Positions 1-38,243 of a stretch of DNA of 59,770 nt are shown here, one piece after another. Below the pieces are notes generated by a model, which saw only the letters and a program-made list of their open reading frames with translations, was not told the origin of the DNA and ran no database searches. A program made the position numbers and the translations under genes. Source of the stretch: Candidatus Ornithospirochaeta avicola (GTDB taxonomy: Bacteria > Spirochaetota > Spirochaetia > Sphaerochaetales > Sphaerochaetaceae); the NCBI GenBank assembly GCA_019113245.1, contig DXHU01000017.1:1-59770 (forward strand), in the 5' to 3' direction. Each line of letters starts with the position of its first letter. The stretch's first letter is position 1.

Positions 1-2
1 AT

Positions 3-551
3 ATTACAATTACAGGACCTTGCCTATGCTTATTAAAAGGAGAGAACGGTTCTGGAAAAACTACACTTCTTGAAATTCTTTTAGGTATTCATAACACGGA
101 TGGAGCAATTACATTTTATGGAATATCGCCAAATACGATATATTATTTCTTCCAAACTGCTACCTTGTTTAAAGGCACAATTCGTGACAACTTATTACTT
201 GGTTCATATAAAAGGGATAATGAAATTTATGATGTTTTAAAATCTGTTGGTATTTATGAGAAAATATTTCATTTGCCCAGCTCATTAGACACTGTAGTTA
301 GTGATGATTCTTTTTCTCGTGGAGAAGTTAAGAGATTGTTATTAGCTCGTGCTTTATTGCAAAACTTTGATGTATTGTTAATTGATGAAATTGAAAATTC
401 AATTGACTTGAATTCGAAAAAAAAGATTTTGTCTCTGCTTAAAGAAGTGTCAAAGAAAAAAATAGTTATTTTGGTCTCTCATGATATAGAGGCTGATGCA
501 TACGCAGATAGAGTTTTTCAAATCAGAAGTCAGAATATAGTTGAAATTTGA
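3..551 (+). CDS. ABC exporter ATP-binding domain, 3' part only
   Basis: The reading frame is open from the first bases, so the gene begins outside the window. What remains is the nucleotide-binding domain of an ABC transporter. Walker A reads GENGSGKTTLLEIL, and the Q-loop reads FFQTATLFKGTIRDNLLLG, a form typical of ABCB/peptide-export half-transporters, where an export-type membrane domain normally precedes it. The signature motif is FSRGEVKRLLLARALL instead of LSGGQ, and Walker B ends LLIDEIENS instead of LLDEPTS. The catalytic Glu of Walker B and the H-loop His (VILVSHD) are kept, so it may still hydrolyse ATP. It is in a very AT-rich stretch unlike the rest of the window. The exporter assignment is good; the substrate is unknown. 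Confidence 0.8.
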   Translation: MTITGPCLCLLKGENGSGKTTLLEILLGIHNTDGAITFYGISPNTIYYFFQTATLFKGTIRDNLLLGSYKRDNEIYDVLKSVGIYEKIFHLPSSLDTVVSDDSFSRGEVKRLLLARALLQNFDVLLIDEIENSIDLNSKKKILSLLKEVSKKKIVILVSHDIEADAYADRVFQIRSQNIVEI

Positions 552-962
552 ATAGAAGATTTCCGTATATCTTAGCCATACGTTCAGTTCTATCTTTTAT
601 TCTTACAATTTGCTGCAGAGTAATGTGCCGAGTCTGATATGGTGGCAAGTTTTAGATTAGATAATATTCATTTTGCTGTCTTAGTACAATTTGTTGCATG
701 AATCTGTTTATCTTTTATATTTTTATGCATAAGTGGGAAAGAAATATAACAGGTTTATTTGTTATTCTGAATAATATCAAAATGAATTAATGACTAATTA
801 AACTATAGTTTATTATTTGCACCTAAGTTTGATAGTGCTTTTATTTGATTTGAGCACTATTTATAGAAAATATTATATAATTGCTTAAATATTGTAATGG
901 GTTTCAGTTTGACTATCAAAAATATATTTATCCAGCTGTTTATGATTTATTAAAAGGGAAAA
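552..962. other. AT-rich gene-free gap
   Basis: About 410 bases without a convincing coding frame on either strand and without a clear hairpin terminator. It separates the ABC ATPase gene from the next gene of the same strand, so it probably holds the promoter of the two-gene unit that follows; no single -35/-10 pair stands out in such AT-rich sequence. Confidence 0.5.
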
Positions 963-1481
963 ATGGTTTCTGAAAAAAATTTTGAAAATTATTTAATGTT
1001 ATTGACTAGAATCTATGATAAAAGAAAGGTTCTGCAACAAAGAGAAAACTCTGTATTAAAAATATTATTTTATACCCCTTTCTATGCAAAAGCAAAAAAT
1101 CCAGAAAGGGTTGCACTAGTAAACATGTGTAATTATTTTTTGTATTCCTCAAAAATAACGAAAGATATTTTTCATCATAATGAATACGATGATGACGAGC
1201 TGTTCATTAGAATATCTTTACTTTATAATATTCCTGACGGAGATGAGCTTATAATTGAAAAAGGAAAACTTGTTTTAGAGTTAATTATGCTTCAGGATCA
1301 TTTTGCAGATATGGAGGCAGATTTACAGAATGCGAAATATAATCCTATCTTATCAGGAAAATGGGATTATTACGAATTACGAAAGAGAATAATTAGTAGA
1401 ATTGATTCTATTAAGTCGGCTGAATATGATGCTGCAATATCAATAAGAGATGCTTTTGAGCAAAATTTTTGGATGGTATAA
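963..1481 (+). CDS. Hypothetical protein, 172 aa
   Basis: Not recognised. The start is an ATG preceded by a purine-rich AAGGGA about 4 bases upstream. The product is soluble, with no signal peptide or membrane segment, and predicted mostly helical, with charged stretches such as HNEYDDDELF and a Trp/Tyr-containing segment GKWDYYELRKR. The stop codon is immediately followed by the ATG of the membrane-bound LuxR-type regulator, so the two are almost certainly co-transcribed and probably work together; a partner or sensor role for the regulator is inference only. Codon use is as AT-rich as its neighbours. Confidence 0.65.
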   Translation: MVSEKNFENYLMLLTRIYDKRKVLQQRENSVLKILFYTPFYAKAKNPERVALVNMCNYFLYSSKITKDIFHHNEYDDDELFIRISLLYNIPDGDELIIEKGKLVLELIMLQDHFADMEADLQNAKYNPILSGKWDYYELRKRIISRIDSIKSAEYDAAISIRDAFEQNFWMV

Positions 1482-2459
1482 ATGTCGGAAAGAAGGCTAA
1501 CTCAAATTACAATAGGTATTTTATTTTCTTTTTTTTTATTGATATCTATATTTTTTAATTTTGTTATAATGTTTTCTTCTTACAGAAGACAATCTTCATA
1601 TGATATTACAATTATTATTCTTTTCGTGTTTTTTATAAGTTTTCTATTGTCAATGATAAAAGAAAAAACAGGTATGATTATGCAAGTCATCCTAATATTA
1701 TCGATTTCGTATGTTTGTTTTATTTTTAATGGTGAATATGATTTCTTCAGCTGGGGGTTTCTATTATTATTCATCATTTTGTCATATCATTACGGATTCT
1801 TAGAAAACTATATTTATACAAAATTTTTAATTTTTCTTTTATCGTTTATTGTTGTAATTTCTATTACAGCCTATGTGCATAAAAACCCATTTATAGTGGT
1901 AATTTGTTTGATTTATTTTTGTTGTGTTTTCTTTTTTTGCTGTTTCATATTCCGAAAAATTGTGTATGAGCTATTTCATTCTGAAAAGCAAATTGCGGAT
2001 TTACAGCAGATGCTATGTATAAAAGAACAAGAATTGGAACAGGCTAGAATAAATTCAAAAGTTGAGGAGCTTTCATTTAACAACTATTTAGAGCTGGTAA
2101 AGAGAATACAGTGCTTAGAAGAAGAAAATAATAAATTAAAGTTAAACATTACAACTGCTATGGGGAATTATTTGAATAAAAAGGAACAACTCTTTGAAGA
2201 TAAAGATAATTTATCAAAAATAATTGAAAAACTTTTTCCTGTATTTAATTCTAAAGAAAAAAGAGTATTAATTGATTTCTATTTATCAAATGGCAGTAAA
2301 ACAAATAATGAAATTGCCTATGATTTAGGAACAACGGAACAGACCGTTAAAAATGCTTTTAGAAAGATTTTTAATGAACTACAAATAAAATCTAGAGCTG
2401 AAGTGCTTGTAAAATTAGACACAGTTTTATCCAGTATTACAAACGAATATGAGATATGA
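1482..2459 (+). CDS. Membrane-anchored LuxR-type transcriptional regulator
   Basis: A 325-residue protein in three parts. Residues about 8-157 contain roughly six hydrophobic segments, including one very Phe/Cys-rich helix near 140-155. Residues about 165-225 are charged and heptad-like (LEEENNKLK), a probable coiled coil for dimerisation. Residues about 240-310 match a LuxR/GerE helix-turn-helix: SKEKRVLIDFYL, then NNEIAYDLGTTEQTVKNAF, then LQIKSRAEVLVKL. The protein would read a membrane or extracellular signal and bind DNA at the cytoplasmic face. There is no receiver or kinase domain. It starts directly after the stop of the upstream hypothetical gene. Targets may include the adjacent exporter (inference). 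Confidence 0.75.
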   Translation: MSERRLTQITIGILFSFFLLISIFFNFVIMFSSYRRQSSYDITIIILFVFFISFLLSMIKEKTGMIMQVILILSISYVCFIFNGEYDFFSWGFLLLFIILSYHYGFLENYIYTKFLIFLLSFIVVISITAYVHKNPFIVVICLIYFCCVFFFCCFIFRKIVYELFHSEKQIADLQQMLCIKEQELEQARINSKVEELSFNNYLELVKRIQCLEEENNKLKLNITTAMGNYLNKKEQLFEDKDNLSKIIEKLFPVFNSKEKRVLIDFYLSNGSKTNNEIAYDLGTTEQTVKNAFRKIFNELQIKSRAEVLVKLDTVLSSITNEYEI

Positions 2460-2730
2460 TTTTCTGAAAGCAGAAAAAGTGGGGATATGTACGTTTTCTT
2501 AAATTTAAGTGATAGATGTTTTATTTTCGTTGTCACATCATAGGACATGAGTGCTTATCTTCAGCTTTTTTATTTCATGGGTTCAAACTAGAGCTTGTTA
2601 TCATTAGGTATAAAACCAGTCAAATAACAAGGATGTTTTAAAACCGGTCTGTAATTAATAAAGGTATAGCGATTTTTAGTTTTTTCTGGTGAATCCAGAT
2701 GGAATGCTGTCTCTGCGGTTAATAATGGGT
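2460..2730. other. AT-rich gene-free stretch
   Basis: No coding frame is convincing here. Two imperfect direct copies of TAAAACCRGTC lie at 2611-2621 and 2639-2649. A short hairpin (TTTTCTG/CAGAAAA) just after the regulator gene has no T-tract. This marks the right edge of the AT-rich block before the tRNA operon. Confidence 0.4.
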
Positions 2731-2778
2731 AAAAAAACAAAAACCTGACTAATTCCTTTTATCAGAATCAGTCAGGTT
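2731..2778 (-). terminator. Rho-independent terminator of the tRNA operon
   Basis: Two 13-base arms (2742-2754 and 2766-2778) form a stem with one G-U pair. On the minus strand the hairpin is followed by TTTGTTTTTTT. It lies right after the last tRNA of the minus-strand operon. Confidence 0.9.
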
Positions 2779-2781
2779 AAG

Positions 2782-2853
2782 AGCGAAAGACGGGACTTGA
2801 ACCCGCGACATCCACCTTGGCAAGGTGGAGCTCTACCACTGAGCTACTTTCGC
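2782..2853 (-). tRNA. tRNA-Gly (GCC)
   Basis: Complete cloverleaf on the minus strand. The acceptor is GCGAAAG/CTTTCGC with discriminator U. The anticodon loop TTGCCAA sits in a CCACC/GGTGG stem, and the T-loop is GGTTCAAGTCC. The 3' CCA is not encoded. Last gene of the five-tRNA operon, three bases upstream of its terminator. Confidence 0.97.
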
Positions 2854-2866
2854 ATTGCCGTAGTGT

Positions 2867-2946
2867 TGCGAGAGGAGGGACTCGAACCCTCACGCGGAGG
2901 CACTAGTTCCTAAGACTAGCGTGTATACCAATTTCACCACTCTCGC
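2867..2946 (-). tRNA. tRNA-Leu (TAG)
   Basis: The acceptor GCGAGAG pairs with CTCTCGC and the discriminator is A. The anticodon loop CTTAGGA in a CTAGT/ACTAG stem gives UAG. At 80 bases it has a short class II variable arm. CCA is not encoded. Fourth in the operon. Confidence 0.96.
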
Positions 2947-2948
2947 GA

Positions 2949-3021
2949 TGAGCCGCAAAGGGATCGAACCTTTGACCCACAGATTAAGAGTCTGTTGCTC
3001 TACCAGCTGAGCTAGCGGCCC
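2949..3021 (-). tRNA. tRNA-Lys (CTT)
   Basis: The acceptor GGGCCGC pairs with GCGGCTC (one G-U) and the discriminator is A. The anticodon loop CTCTTAA in an ACAGA/TCTGT stem gives CUU. CCA is not encoded. Only two bases separate it from the tRNA-Leu gene. Confidence 0.96.
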
Positions 3022-3038
3022 TGTTTAAATGTTGTTAT

Positions 3039-3112
3039 CGCGCCCTGTAGGATTCGAACCTACGACCTGCGGATTCGAAGTCCGTCACTCTATCCAGCTG
3101 AGCTAAGAGCGC
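3039..3112 (-). tRNA. tRNA-Arg (TCG)
   Basis: The acceptor GCGCTCT pairs with AGGGCGC (one U-G pair) and the discriminator is G. The anticodon loop CTTCGAA gives UCG. The outermost anticodon-stem pair (27-43) is an A-C mismatch. CCA is not encoded. Confidence 0.95.
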
Positions 3113-3119
3113 AATATAG

Positions 3120-3192
3120 GGTGGAAGAAGGGATTCGAACCCTCGACAACCAGATCCACAATCTGGCGCTCTACCACTGAACTACTTCCACC
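3120..3192 (-). tRNA. tRNA-His (GTG)
   Basis: The acceptor GTGGAAG/CTTCCAC is extended by an encoded G-1 paired with discriminator C73, the identity element of bacterial tRNA-His. The anticodon loop TTGTGGA gives GUG. CCA is not encoded. First gene of the operon. Confidence 0.97.
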
Positions 3193-3270: not shown

Positions 3271-3413
3271 TAGCTTTTGAAAAAATATTTTCAATTATCA
3301 TGGATACAGGGTTTAAAATGTTTTTGCATAAGTAGATAGATTATGAATTAATTCTGTTATTTTTTTTCTTGTTCTGATTAACATTTATGCTTATATTTAT
3401 CCTGGAGCAGATG

Positions 3414-4250
3414 ATGAGAGTAATAAAAGATTGTTCTTTTGATGAAGAGAGAGCTCTCTATGGAGAGCATGATATAAAACTTATTAATGTCAGTTTTTCA
3501 GGAAAGGCAGACGGGGAGAGCGCTTTGAAAGAGGCCTCAGATATTGAATGCGAGAATGTGCTCTTCAATCTGCGTTATCCTCTCTGGCATGACAGCAATG
3601 TTGTCATAAAGAACTCCACGATGACCGAAAACTGCCGTGCTGCCCTCTGGTATACAGATAATGTAGAGATAACAAAGAGTCATCTGAATGGCATAAAGGC
3701 TCTGAGAGAATGCAGTAATGTGAGAATCAAGGATACTTCCATAGTATCACCTGAATTCGGCTGGAGATCTTCTTCTATTTCTGCAGAAAATGTTAAAGCA
3801 GAAGGCGAGTACTTCATGTTCGAGAGCAGAAAGCTTGACTTTAGGAACATTGAGTTCAAAGGCAAATACTCATTCCAGTACATTGAGGATGCCCGCTTTG
3901 AAAACTGCCGTTTTGATACAAAGGATGCCTTCTGGCACAGCAAGAACACGACTGTGATAAATTCTGTGATAAAAGGTGAATATCTGGCATGGTATTCGGA
4001 GAATCTTACTCTTATTGATTGCAAGATTATAGGCACGCAGCCGCTCTGCTACGCAAGGAATCTGAAGATGGTCAACTGCACTATGACAGACACAGATCTC
4101 TCTTTTGAGAAATCAGATGTGGATGCAAGCATTACAGGAGATATCCTGAGCATCAAGAATCCTAAGAGCGGCAAAATCACAGTAAAAGGAAAGATTGGTT
4201 CCATAATCCTGGATGATGACAACAGCAAGGGAGAAATTATAGAAATCTGA
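3414..4250 (+). CDS. DUF3737 family beta-helix protein
   Basis: A cytoplasmic protein of about 278 residues resembling DUF3737. Many short rungs repeat the pattern of an N/D/E-rich turn plus an aromatic (for example LWHDSNVVIKNS, LWYTDNVEITKS, FWHSKNTTVINS, AWYSENLTLIDC), as expected for a right-handed parallel beta-helix. There is no signal peptide and no catalytic motif that I can name, and the family's function is unknown. Two adjacent ATGs (3411, 3414) follow a GGAG at 3403-3406; 3414 gives the better spacing. An in-frame ATG at 3387 lacks a ribosome site. It lies 60 bases upstream of nrdA, on the same strand. Confidence 0.82.
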   Translation: MRVIKDCSFDEERALYGEHDIKLINVSFSGKADGESALKEASDIECENVLFNLRYPLWHDSNVVIKNSTMTENCRAALWYTDNVEITKSHLNGIKALRECSNVRIKDTSIVSPEFGWRSSSISAENVKAEGEYFMFESRKLDFRNIEFKGKYSFQYIEDARFENCRFDTKDAFWHSKNTTVINSVIKGEYLAWYSENLTLIDCKIIGTQPLCYARNLKMVNCTMTDTDLSFEKSDVDASITGDILSIKNPKSGKITVKGKIGSIILDDDNSKGEIIEI

Positions 4251-35007: not shown

Positions 35008-36573
35008 ATGTTCAGAATTCTTAAAATCAACAGCAAAAGCCTTTCTCGCTTTATATCATTCTGCATTCTTTCCTTACTGCTTTCTCTTGTACAGATAACA
35101 ATATCATATTCTCTGTCATCTTTGACTGCATCCATAGTCGAGAACAGAAGCTATGTACTCTCTCTTGCTTTTATGACACTGGCTGTGTATATGGTCAGTT
35201 CGCTTACTAAGTTTGTGTACAACCAGTACTCATCATATCTTGCAGCTTCCTGGAGGAAGGATGCCGTTGTAAAAATTGAGGATGCTCTGATGAACATAAG
35301 CATGGAAGATCCTCTTTTTTCTGATTCAGGGCGTCTTTTAACCATTCTTTCAAGTGACAGCGAGGAATGCTATGAGTTTCTCAGAGGATCTGGAGCTGAT
35401 CTTGTATATCAGTTGATATGTACATCCATGTTCCTTGTTTATATCATCTGGCTTTCTCCGCTTCTTTCGGCAATCTATATTGCTGTTTCATTGCTGACAA
35501 TTATCATCCAGACGCTTATAAGCCGTCTGTCAAAGGGCCTGAATTCAGCTGTCAAAGATAACCTTTCAGCGCTCTCTTCCTCCCTGAAGAGTCTTGTGGA
35601 GAACAGGGATATGATCAGCTCCTATCCGGATGGAGGAATCGCATATGACTATCTTGCAGAAAGCCAGGAGGCATATGCAAGGCTTGAGAAGAAGACAGCC
35701 ATTTATTCCGCGCTTTTAAGGTCCATCGGTCTTTTCATGGGTTTTCTCCCGATAATAGCACTTTCTGCCCTGGGGCTGTATATGGTTCCAAAGTCCCTCG
35801 TCAGTCTCTCATCTTTTCTTGCCATTTACTATATTTCTGAGGATTTAACCACAACACAGCTGCATTATGCAGATTTGTTTTATGATAGAGTCAGAACTCT
35901 TGTCTGCTTTTCAAGGATTGAGAATCTTGTAAAAAGGGAAAAATGGAAGAGAAAGAATGAGAGCTGTGATTCTCTTTATGTGGATAATCTCTGTTATGGT
36001 TATGGCGAGAAAAACATATTGAACGGTCTGTCCCTAGAGGCAAAAAAAGGCGAAAAGATTGCAATAATAGGAGAAAGTGGATGCGGCAAGTCGACACTTG
36101 CCCGTATAATTGCCGGGCTTTACACTGCACAAAAAGGAATAGTGGAAAATCCTCCGGCAGTGCTTGCAAGTCAGGACTCGTTCATTTTCTCCCTTTCTGT
36201 GAAGGAGAATATCATATTAGCTGAAAAATTTGATGAAGAGCGTTTTTCATTCGCATGCCAGTCAGCATCTGTGGATAAATTCATAAAGAACTATGATGAA
36301 ATAATTGAGGACAATGGATCAAAGCTCTCCGGAGGGCAGAGACAGCGCATTGCGCTTGCTAGGGCTCTTTATTCTTCTTGTCCTCTGATTATTTTAGATG
36401 AGCCGTTTTCTGCGCTGGATGGAGAAACTGTTGACTTCATACTTTCTGCTCTCAAGAGTCCATGCTATATGAGCAGAACATTCATATTCATACTTCACCA
36501 GGAGGAGCTTACATCATATTTTGACAGAGTATATCGCATGAAGGATGGAAGGCTTGAGGAGGTAAAAAGATGA
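35008..36573 (+). CDS. ABC exporter half-transporter, first subunit
   Basis: About 521 aa: a six-helix export-type membrane domain (to about 300) and an ATPase domain with Walker A IGESGCGKST (about 355-364), signature LSGGQRQRIALARALY, Walker B LIILDEPFSALDGE and H-loop His in FILHQEE. The start at 35008 is set by GGGGAGG four bases upstream. It overlaps the second half-transporter by four bases, so a heterodimer is expected. Both sites keep the Walker B glutamate, so neither is obviously degenerate. The substrate is unknown; peptides, lipids and drugs are all possible. Confidence 0.9.
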   Translation: MFRILKINSKSLSRFISFCILSLLLSLVQITISYSLSSLTASIVENRSYVLSLAFMTLAVYMVSSLTKFVYNQYSSYLAASWRKDAVVKIEDALMNISMEDPLFSDSGRLLTILSSDSEECYEFLRGSGADLVYQLICTSMFLVYIIWLSPLLSAIYIAVSLLTIIIQTLISRLSKGLNSAVKDNLSALSSSLKSLVENRDMISSYPDGGIAYDYLAESQEAYARLEKKTAIYSALLRSIGLFMGFLPIIALSALGLYMVPKSLVSLSSFLAIYYISEDLTTTQLHYADLFYDRVRTLVCFSRIENLVKREKWKRKNESCDSLYVDNLCYGYGEKNILNGLSLEAKKGEKIAIIGESGCGKSTLARIIAGLYTAQKGIVENPPAVLASQDSFIFSLSVKENIILAEKFDEERFSFACQSASVDKFIKNYDEIIEDNGSKLSGGQRQRIALARALYSSCPLIILDEPFSALDGETVDFILSALKSPCYMSRTFIFILHQEELTSYFDRVYRMKDGRLEEVKR

Positions 36574-38243
36574 CAAGAGCTGAGATAAAGTCATTCAATT
36601 CTGTATTTTCCCTCCTGGGCAGAAAGCGTATTCTCTATGTGCTGTTTTCTCTAATTAGCGGAATCTCTGTCTTTGTTCTGTTCTCATCTGTTGGAATACT
36701 CATGAGAGAGCTTCTTGATATGATTGACTCTCAGTCTTCTGTAAGTCTTCTTAACATACTGCTTTACATAGCCATTATTTTCCTGATGTCGCTTCTTGGA
36801 GGCCTGACTGAGTCCGGGTTCTGCTCTCTTGAGATGGATGTGCAGGCAAAAGTAAGGAGAAAAATGCTGGAAAGCATATATAATGCGGATCTGAACAAAA
36901 ATATAAAGATGGATTTGGGAGAACTTTTTGCCCGCATCACCGATGATGCATCCCGTTGTGCAAAGGCTGTATCTGTCAGACTCTCCGACTATGTGTTCAT
37001 TCCAATGGTCTCCGGGCTTGTTTCCTTTATATTCTTATTTTTCGTGAACATATTCCTTGCATTTTTCTGTCTTGCTGTCGCACTTTTGAATCTTGCTCTG
37101 CTTTCAGTTTTCAGAAAGCGGATAGATTCTATCAACTCATCTATTGCAGCGCTTCGCGGAAATGTGAATTCCTCTGCTAGAGAGATATTGAACGGAAGTG
37201 CTGAAATTAGGATATTCGGCCTCAATAATCTCTTTTTGAAAAGAGTGGAGGAGAAAGCAGATGAGATATATTCTCTTACTGTAAAAAAAGAGAAATACGC
37301 TAATTTAAGATATTCTATATACAACATATCGGCAGACGGTCTTACCAGTGTGGCTGCTGTCATTCTTGCATATTTCCTTTCCAAAGCCGGCTACATGGAT
37401 TTTGCAGATGTGTTCCTTGCCCGTCCTCTTGCGGACCAGATTTCCCAGATGTTAGTTGCTTTTTCCAATTTCTCTGTTTTGATGTCTCAGATTACTCCCA
37501 GCATCCGCCGAACTGAAGAGGTCATGAACATGAGAAAAGAAAGAAAAGGAGGCATTGTGCTGAAAGGTGCGAATAGAATATCTTTTGAAAATGTATCATT
37601 TTCTTATCCTGATGGAAATAGCGTTCTTCACAGCATCTCGTTTACTCTTGAGAAAGGGAAAAAATATGCCTTTGTAGGAGAAAGCGGAAGCGGCAAGTCA
37701 ACAATACTGAAACTTCTTATGGGCTTTTATATGCCAACTGAGGGAAAAGTCACCTTGAACGGAGTCAGCAGTGAGGAAGCTGACCTTTTATCGTGGCGCG
37801 GCAATTTCTCTTATCTCAACCAGTCTTACAGCATTCTTAATACATCAATTGCTCAGAACATATCTTTCTCTTCTTCTCCTGATGATGAAAAGGTTCTAAA
37901 AACTCTTGAGAGCGTCAATGCTCTTTCTTTTATCAGGAAAAGGAATCTGGATATTCATGAGAAAAGGAATGTAAGCACTCTGCAACTTTCAGGCGGAGAG
38001 AGACAGAGGATTTCCGTTGCAAGGGTGCTTTATCAGGATAATCCTGTACTTGTTCTTGATGAGGCGACAAGTGCTCTTGATAAAGAAAACAGGGATAATC
38101 TTTCATCCATTTTATCATCCATTGACGACAAGATTATAGTATCTGTCACTCACCAGATGGATTTTCTGTCTGGTTTTGATCAGGTTTTTGCCGTATCTGA
38201 AGGAAAGTTAGAAAGACTTGAGCATTTAGAAAACATGAAGTAG
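36570..38243 (+). CDS. ABC exporter half-transporter, second subunit
   Basis: 557 aa, same architecture as its partner. The ATPase domain has Walker A VGESGSGKSTI, signature LSGGERQRISVARVLY, Walker B VLVLDEATSALDKE and H-loop VTHQMD. The Q-loop region reads FSYLNQSYSILNTSIAQNI. It starts four bases before the end of the first subunit gene. No terminator follows directly; the thioesterase-nrdG pair begins about 90 bases later on the same strand. Confidence 0.9.
   Translation: MTRAEIKSFNSVFSLLGRKRILYVLFSLISGISVFVLFSSVGILMRELLDMIDSQSSVSLLNILLYIAIIFLMSLLGGLTESGFCSLEMDVQAKVRRKMLESIYNADLNKNIKMDLGELFARITDDASRCAKAVSVRLSDYVFIPMVSGLVSFIFLFFVNIFLAFFCLAVALLNLALLSVFRKRIDSINSSIAALRGNVNSSAREILNGSAEIRIFGLNNLFLKRVEEKADEIYSLTVKKEKYANLRYSIYNISADGLTSVAAVILAYFLSKAGYMDFADVFLARPLADQISQMLVAFSNFSVLMSQITPSIRRTEEVMNMRKERKGGIVLKGANRISFENVSFSYPDGNSVLHSISFTLEKGKKYAFVGESGSGKSTILKLLMGFYMPTEGKVTLNGVSSEEADLLSWRGNFSYLNQSYSILNTSIAQNISFSSSPDDEKVLKTLESVNALSFIRKRNLDIHEKRNVSTLQLSGGERQRISVARVLYQDNPVLVLDEATSALDKENRDNLSSILSSIDDKIIVSVTHQMDFLSGFDQVFAVSEGKLERLEHLENMK

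Follow-up and report, generated by a model that had tools for sequence, protein, structure and literature searches.

An AT-rich segment abutting a tRNA-Gly gene in Candidatus Ornithospirochaeta avicola carries a candidate two-gene membrane signalling module

Results and Discussion

Genes and base composition at the left end of the contig

The subject of this study is the left end of a stretch of 59,770 nucleotides from Candidatus Ornithospirochaeta avicola, hereafter referred to as the window, which is the entire contig C16 of a 23-contig, 1.5-Mb genome (G000). Its first 2.8 kb contain the end of an ATP-binding cassette (ABC) transporter gene, a gene for a small protein of an undescribed family that we call U172, and a gene for a membrane-anchored regulator, followed by five transfer RNA (tRNA) genes. 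Since the window is a complete contig, base 1 represents an assembly end, and the left side of the segment is therefore unassembled. The three protein-coding genes are all located on the plus strand and correspond to their description in the initial annotation, which was made from the sequence alone. The first (3..551) specifies the C-terminal 182 residues of an ABC transporter ATPase domain (PF00005, E-value 1.7e-17), the N-terminus of which lies beyond the contig end. The second (963..1481) encodes U172, a protein of 172 residues that matched no Pfam or PHROGs family and whose best NCBIfam match reached an E-value of only 0.061. The U172 reading frame ends at base 1481 and abuts that of the third gene (1482..2459), which encodes a protein of 325 residues with six hydrophobic segments, long helices and a C-terminal LuxR-type helix-turn-helix (HTH) domain. 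This protein combines transmembrane segments (six by hydropathy) with a DNA-binding domain, as is characteristic of transmembrane transcription regulators. It should be noted here that the HTH domain barely exceeds the PF00196 cut-off (26.1 versus 23.5 bits), and that the AlphaFold model of this protein is of low confidence (predicted template modelling score (pTM) 0.40). The tRNA genes for Gly, Leu, Lys, Arg and His follow on the minus strand (2781-3191, ARAGORN); the tRNA-Gly (gcc) gene occupies 2781..2853 and the other four 2867..3191. Between the regulator gene and tRNA-Gly lies the flank of the tRNA operon (2724..2778, minus strand), which contains an inverted repeat recognized by eye.

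The initial annotation had described the first 2.7 kb as visibly richer in A and T than the remainder, and this was borne out by the base composition. The guanine-plus-cytosine (GC) fractions of the first five 500-base blocks are 0.308, 0.256, 0.298, 0.236 and 0.274 (24-31%), whereas the blocks from base 3001 onwards have a mean of 0.429 (43%; standard deviation 0.032) and a minimum of 0.328. With values of 0.236-0.308, all five blocks thus fall below the lowest later block. The genes themselves have GC fractions of 0.308 (ABC part), 0.283 (U172) and 0.255 (LuxR-type regulator), and their GC fractions at third codon positions are 0.22, 0.22 and 0.23, compared to 0.47, 0.43 and 0.49 in the next three genes. 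A base composition that differs from that of the host, as in genomic islands, is accordingly present in bases 1-2500. Based on the composition (0.24-0.31 GC up to base 2500) and on homology to the congener G020 that starts only at base 2779, we delimit the AT-rich segment at 1..2778 (no strand assigned), as the right-hand end of a putative island whose left end is set by the contig end. The first 150 bases of the window gave only short chance matches to the rest of the G000 assembly. Both ends of the other 22 contigs were also inspected (4-6 kb each; 4 kb at the C22 start) for open reading frames (ORFs) of at least 80 residues near the ends, and no exporter stub that could be joined to base 1 was found among them.

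The tRNA-Gly site in related genomes

Ending beside five tRNA genes, the segment lies at what the initial annotation regarded as a favourite insertion site, and the comparison with congeners supports this view. The nearest congener found, G020, is 94% identical to the window over 4.8 kb, with the similarity starting at base 2779. This is two bases outside the tRNA-Gly gene, which ends at 2781, and the boundary is thus located at the 3' end of the tRNA. In other congeners, the similarity extends into the tRNA flank, to positions 2724-2734. No match to bases 1-2723 was found in the tRNA flanks of ten congeners, and U172 was without a match at an E-value of 0.001 in all 47 congeners searched, so that the same genes do not occur at the same place in these relatives. 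At the equivalent site, G020 has 6.3 kb with iron-uptake-like genes and a HicAB-like pair, both recognized by eye, and a tRNA-Ala gene (ARAGORN). Beyond them lies the gene with which contig C14 of G000 begins. Because G020 has other genes at this position and then the gene that begins C14, G000 has a different segment at this site. C14, which carries the gene situated 6.3 kb to the left of the tRNAs in G020, is for this reason the likely left neighbour of the window, with an unassembled gap between them, and 413 bases of C14 perhaps represent the left end of this segment.

At least two types of tRNA-Gly flank were distinguished in the eleven aligned genomes. The G000 type is shared with G010, G034 and G036, and the other type is found in G020, G017, G039 and G045; in alignments and blastn comparisons, the 2724..2778 flank resembled those of G001, G010, G034 and G036 and was unlike that of G020. 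Three congeners (G010, G034 and G002) have part of the tRNA-Gly 3' end once more on the same contig, at a distance of 2.4-3.2 kb. Together, the partial tRNA-Gly copies and the variable flanks fit an integration hotspot. No second copy of the tRNA-Gly 3' end was found in the contig ends of G000, of which all were searched except the right end of C22. In two of the loci with a partial copy (L128, 5321-7980, and L127, 4739-8045), the segments of 2.5-3.2 kb between the partial and the intact tRNA-Gly contain large lipoprotein-like ORFs, as judged by eye, and no visible integrase.

U172 and its membrane partner form a recurrent unit in Spirochaetia

A profile of eleven U172 sequences detected the family in 70 of 394 Spirochaetia genomes, G000 included. 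These eleven were drawn from the 14 copies then known: L040 was dropped due to a stop in frame, and L041 and L045 were not included. In a scan of named genomes, the window U172 alone retrieved no relative, and an alignment of five U172 sequences retrieved eight loci, which belong to Spirochaetia. No match to U172 was found in plasmid and phage records. We read 54 loci with 55 U172 copies, one place being read twice (L045 and L259; L259 is counted among the 55 copies but left out of the 49 loci outside the host family discussed below). A multi-transmembrane partner adjoins 47 of the 55 copies, 45 of which have it within 150 bases (as an ORF of more than 150 residues) and two after 178 and 216 bases; no such partner is present beside the remaining 8 copies, of which one is broken. 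Judged by length and motif rather than by profile, the 45 close partners comprise 33 of HTH-type length, 7 with a HisKA_2-like motif, 4 that are longer and without this motif, and 1 that is short. Pfam searches with eight partners placed GerE above the cut-off in five (the window, L261, L264, L267 and L268) and HisKA_2 in two (L262 and L266), and neither in L047. In 40 of 45 cases, the flanks have a higher GC content than the pair that they enclose, with a mean difference of 0.045.

The U172 tree, for which 52 of the 55 sequences were used after removal of identical ones and of those with a matched part shorter than 140 residues, largely follows the genome families. The window U172 and the copy of G209, a genome of a sister genus, are sisters (support 100/96) and 40% identical. 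The three U172s of the host family form one group (93/84), within which the second G000 copy is on a long branch. We found no title on a U172-LuxR module in the literature on membrane-bound LuxR proteins, on spirochaete ribosomally synthesized and post-translationally modified peptides (RiPPs), or on spirochaete tRNA islands. The U172-partner pair constitutes a recurrent unit of Spirochaetia in which the second protein swaps a DNA-binding output for a kinase output.

Related pairs beside radical SAM peptide genes

A second U172-LuxR pair of G000 (L047) is located on the 290-kb contig C23, between thiI and coenzyme A (CoA)-activase genes (named by eye). The opposite strand to this pair carries a radical S-adenosylmethionine (SAM) gene and two ABC genes, and an ORF of 49 residues that contains cysteine starts in between, the pair being divergent from this short ORF across about 160 bases. 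The radical SAM protein of C23 best matched TIGR04136 (FibroRumin maturase) in NCBIfam, with 202 bits, below the cut-off of 400. The thiI and CoA-activase genes are about 40 to 465 bases apart in G001, G014 and G023, and have other genes between them in G034. The G209 pair precedes genes for a LolD-like ATPase and a radical SAM/SPASM protein, three tandem cysteine-rich ORFs (68, 63 and 87 residues) and an ABC exporter gene. Neither of the two radical SAM proteins (C23 and G209) reached an NCBIfam cut-off among the matches listed. In a further genome, G227, a broken U172 lies beside an ABC fragment. Thus, radical SAM and ABC genes are present at both intact host-family loci of which the two flanks are assembled. 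All four host-family loci, compared to 4 of 49 others, have an ABC gene at no more than 2 kb from U172, a distance cut-off chosen after seeing the data.

Outside the host family, radical SAM genes were flagged in 3 of the 49 loci (L250, L256 and L258), all of family f24. L249 and L250 have the same pair in the same surroundings, as judged by eye, and a set of radical SAM, ABC and C39-like genes (by eye) is present only in L250. From this contrast, and from the 46 loci in which no radical SAM gene was flagged, it seems that peptide-type loci come and go beside a mostly solitary pair. In L256 (G311), the pair is found beside several radical SAM genes, together with phosphopantetheinyl-transferase-like, acyl-carrier-like and amino-acid genes (by eye). 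In our literature search, no paper on FibroRumin with radical SAM was found. A survey of RiPPs reports clusters for linear azole-containing peptides in Brachyspira, with Sphaerochaeta unmentioned in the passages concerned.

A possible relationship of U172 to isoprenoid synthases

U172 has no transmembrane segments, and its AlphaFold model (from nine sequences) is confident and all-helical, with a predicted local distance difference test score of 88 and a pTM of 0.85. A Foldseek search with this model returned nothing at an E-value of 0.001; the best rows were mostly terpene or prenyl synthases and bacterioferritins. Among 566 Foldseek chains realigned with VIA-align, all 50 matches listed were isoprenoid or terpene synthases, the best being MoeN5 (Z 9.0 over 162 residues, root-mean-square deviation 4.1), a score within the range (Z below about 13) for which the tool warns that a common helical arrangement may be responsible. 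At the sequence level, PF00348 was matched neither by the window U172 nor by 11 family members, and the eleven-member profile found no PDB sequence with an E-value better than 0.056. Membership of U172 in PF00348 was rejected on the basis of a local hhalign comparison between the 52 U172 sequences and prenyl synthases from 17 of 30 loci (probability 0.06%, E-value 0.78). The best stretch in this alignment was the one that follows the first Asp-rich motif. An ungapped profile scan, which used 15 of the 30 loci, had its best match in the hhalign register; of 500 column shuffles, 29, 0 and 1 scored as well at lengths 25, 33 and 40, respectively. The reversed U172 profile scored 10.35 against 9.59 for the true profile at length 25, 12.24 against 12.32 at length 33, and 12.67 against 12.85 at length 40. 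Because the reversed profile scores higher or about equal, the sequence evidence for kinship with prenyl synthases is not significant. Isoprenoid synthases have a DDxxD metal-binding motif. In U172 the conserved motif is Hx3DDxDx3R, and DDxxD is absent. Moreover, PF00348 was found in none of the 48 genomes of the genus (G000-G047), and the 41 of 100 genomes searched that have such a protein are all outside it.

Although the resemblance of the U172 model to isoprenoid synthases is not significant, we keep it as a lead. On this lead, U172 might be related to class I isoprenoid synthases, though much reduced in length, and might have turned into, or still produce, part of a prenyl or lipid signal. 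The reader of that signal would be the multi-transmembrane partner with its LuxR-type or histidine kinase output. The pair would then represent a ComQ/ComP-like communication system of Spirochaetia with interchangeable outputs, which some lineages would have enlisted for the control of radical SAM peptide loci. We consider this proposal, taken as a whole, to be quite improbable.

Origin and function of the segment

The explanation that we prefer, and in which we place about even confidence, is that bases 1-2778 are the right end of an acquired AT-rich segment joined to the 3' end of tRNA-Gly, that this end carries the last part of an ABC gene and a two-gene signalling module, and that the missing left part is a peptide locus. 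The portion present in the window is most likely a signalling module that controls an exported-peptide locus beyond the contig end. The AT-rich segment would have been acquired horizontally. U172 and the membrane domain of its partner may jointly sense a signal located at the membrane or within it, which might be the exported product, upon which the tethered HTH domain would activate nearby genes for export and modification. In some relatives, a histidine kinase takes the place of the HTH domain behind the multi-transmembrane part. The second G000 locus and the closest pair, in G209, suggest by analogy that the missing left part most likely encodes a radical SAM maturase together with at least one short precursor peptide. 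An island of this kind is ordinary, and its most interesting content is the little-known signalling module. If the module does sense an exported or membrane-borne product, it would provide a handle on the control of modified-peptide loci in uncultured spirochaetes.

Several observations weigh against this explanation. No precursor, modifying enzyme or maturase, and no integrase was recognized among the ORFs of bases 1-2780. The ABC stub is separated from U172 by a gap of 411 bases, and the transporters of the two peptide loci resemble it no more than do other ABC proteins of G000, one of which is its best match. The LuxR-type protein has weak partial matches in three congeners (E-values 4.9e-5 to 8.7e-4), and the regulator of the second G000 pair matched no HTH family of Pfam. 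The contigs of G020 break at the site of the second locus. Furthermore, the G209 pair has an ordinary GC content (0.45 and 0.41). Of the 49 loci outside the host family, of which 4.9-16 kb each were read, 46 had no gene flagged as radical SAM. The initial annotation had taken an exporter plus a membrane-bound regulator as a usual ending of a secreted-peptide locus; this view is partly supported by the two related loci beside radical SAM, ABC and short cysteine-containing ORFs, but it does not extend to these 46 loci.

It is therefore conceivable, albeit clearly less probable than the acquired peptide locus, that U172 and the LuxR-type protein form a general membrane-signal switch that has no tie to peptide loci, in which case the ABC stub would be an unrelated neighbour and the cargo of the island something else. 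Besides the 46 loci, the pair of L249 and L250, in which only the latter has the radical SAM and ABC set, speaks for such a switch. Yet radical SAM and ABC genes accompany the pair at the two intact host-family loci with both flanks, all four host-family loci have an ABC gene no farther than 2 kb away, and the L047 pair is closely divergent from a short ORF, all of which argue for a connection with peptide genes. We regard it as unlikely that the locus is ancestral in the family, having long stood near nrdAB and near the CoA-activase genes, and that the congeners lost it, with no recent insertion. The sister pair in G209 is likewise upstream of nrdAB and on the same strand, at about 11.7 kb compared to 1.85 kb in the window, which also counts against a recent insertion, as does the grouping of the host-family U172s, which would also fit an ancestral locus; in addition, the broken G227 copy and the second G000 copy both adjoin CoA-activase genes (names by eye). 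On the other hand, the U172 gene has a GC fraction of 0.28 in the window and 0.45 in G209, absence from all 47 congeners searched would require loss, and the junction coincides with the 3' end of a tRNA gene, of which congeners have partial second copies. Also, the G227 remnant resembles the G209 pair, as judged by eye, and not the G000 pair found at that position. Finally, the location of the stretch at a contig end and its sharply different composition could be taken to mean that it was joined to the tRNA operon artificially, as a chimera of assembly or binning. We consider this very improbable, as a single contig holds the stretch together with the tRNA and nrd genes, the U172 of the stretch clusters with those of the host family, and a second such pair is present on a 290-kb contig of G000.

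Other features of the window and the assembly

The ABC stub is 25-32% identical to ABC proteins of G000 and of the two peptide loci, none of which is clearly orthologous, and its best matches in G000 are full-length ABC proteins (about 26-30% identity), whereas the transmembrane part belonging to the stub is not assembled. Orthology to the transporter of either peptide locus was considered and is unproven, as other G000 ABC proteins score equally or better. The gap between the stub and U172 (552..962, plus strand) contains no convincing gene. A leader, an attenuator or a peptide gene was considered here and dismissed, because the predicted RNA fold was no better than that of shuffled sequences (z 0.36) and only ORFs of 20-41 residues are present besides the flanking genes. 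Elsewhere in the window, a DUF3737 protein (370 bits) is encoded at 3387-4250, between the tRNAs and nrdA, and is present in G020 as well; two tandem ABC exporter genes are located at 35059-38201.

Terminal overlaps of 131 bases are common to several contig ends of G000 (C3, C8, C10, C12 and C13), and one of 108 bases is shared by C6 and C22. These shared overlaps mark repeats that broke the assembly. At the ends of C3 (L166) and C15 (L178), we noted by eye ORFs similar to a gokushovirus major capsid protein and a microvirus replication protein, which perhaps derive from a microvirus, either integrated or co-binned, that the assembly has broken up.

Comparison with known systems

Transmembrane transcription regulators are one-component systems for which Spirochaetota are listed among the enriched clades in the relevant passages of PMC10269533. 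The likeness lies in a DNA-binding domain that is tethered to the membrane by transmembrane segments of the same protein. The window protein differs in its LuxR-type HTH, in the six hydrophobic segments that precede it, and in having U172 encoded directly upstream; the word LuxR is absent from the main text of that paper. The pair also recalls the ComQXPA system, in which, as described in part of PMC4008528, a smaller protein is encoded before a multi-transmembrane receptor, and the histidine kinase of some U172-associated partners adds to this likeness. ComQ is an isoprenyl transferase (PMC4008528), and the predicted U172 structure resembles that fold, though not significantly. Nevertheless, U172 lacks both a PF00348 match and DDxxD, and has 172 residues compared to at least 255 in the isoprenoid synthase chains among the matches listed. 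No ComX-like gene lies between U172 and the LuxR-type gene (1481/1482), and the latter is followed by tRNA genes rather than by an adjoining ComA. The ComQXPA census, in its relevant passages, gives no instance outside Firmicutes (PMC4008528). The loci of radical SAM RiPPs, such as those of FibroRumin, PapB and similar maturases, share with the C23 and G209 loci a radical SAM enzyme, short cysteine-containing ORFs and ABC transporter genes; the left end of the window differs from them in having only an ABC domain and the regulator pair.

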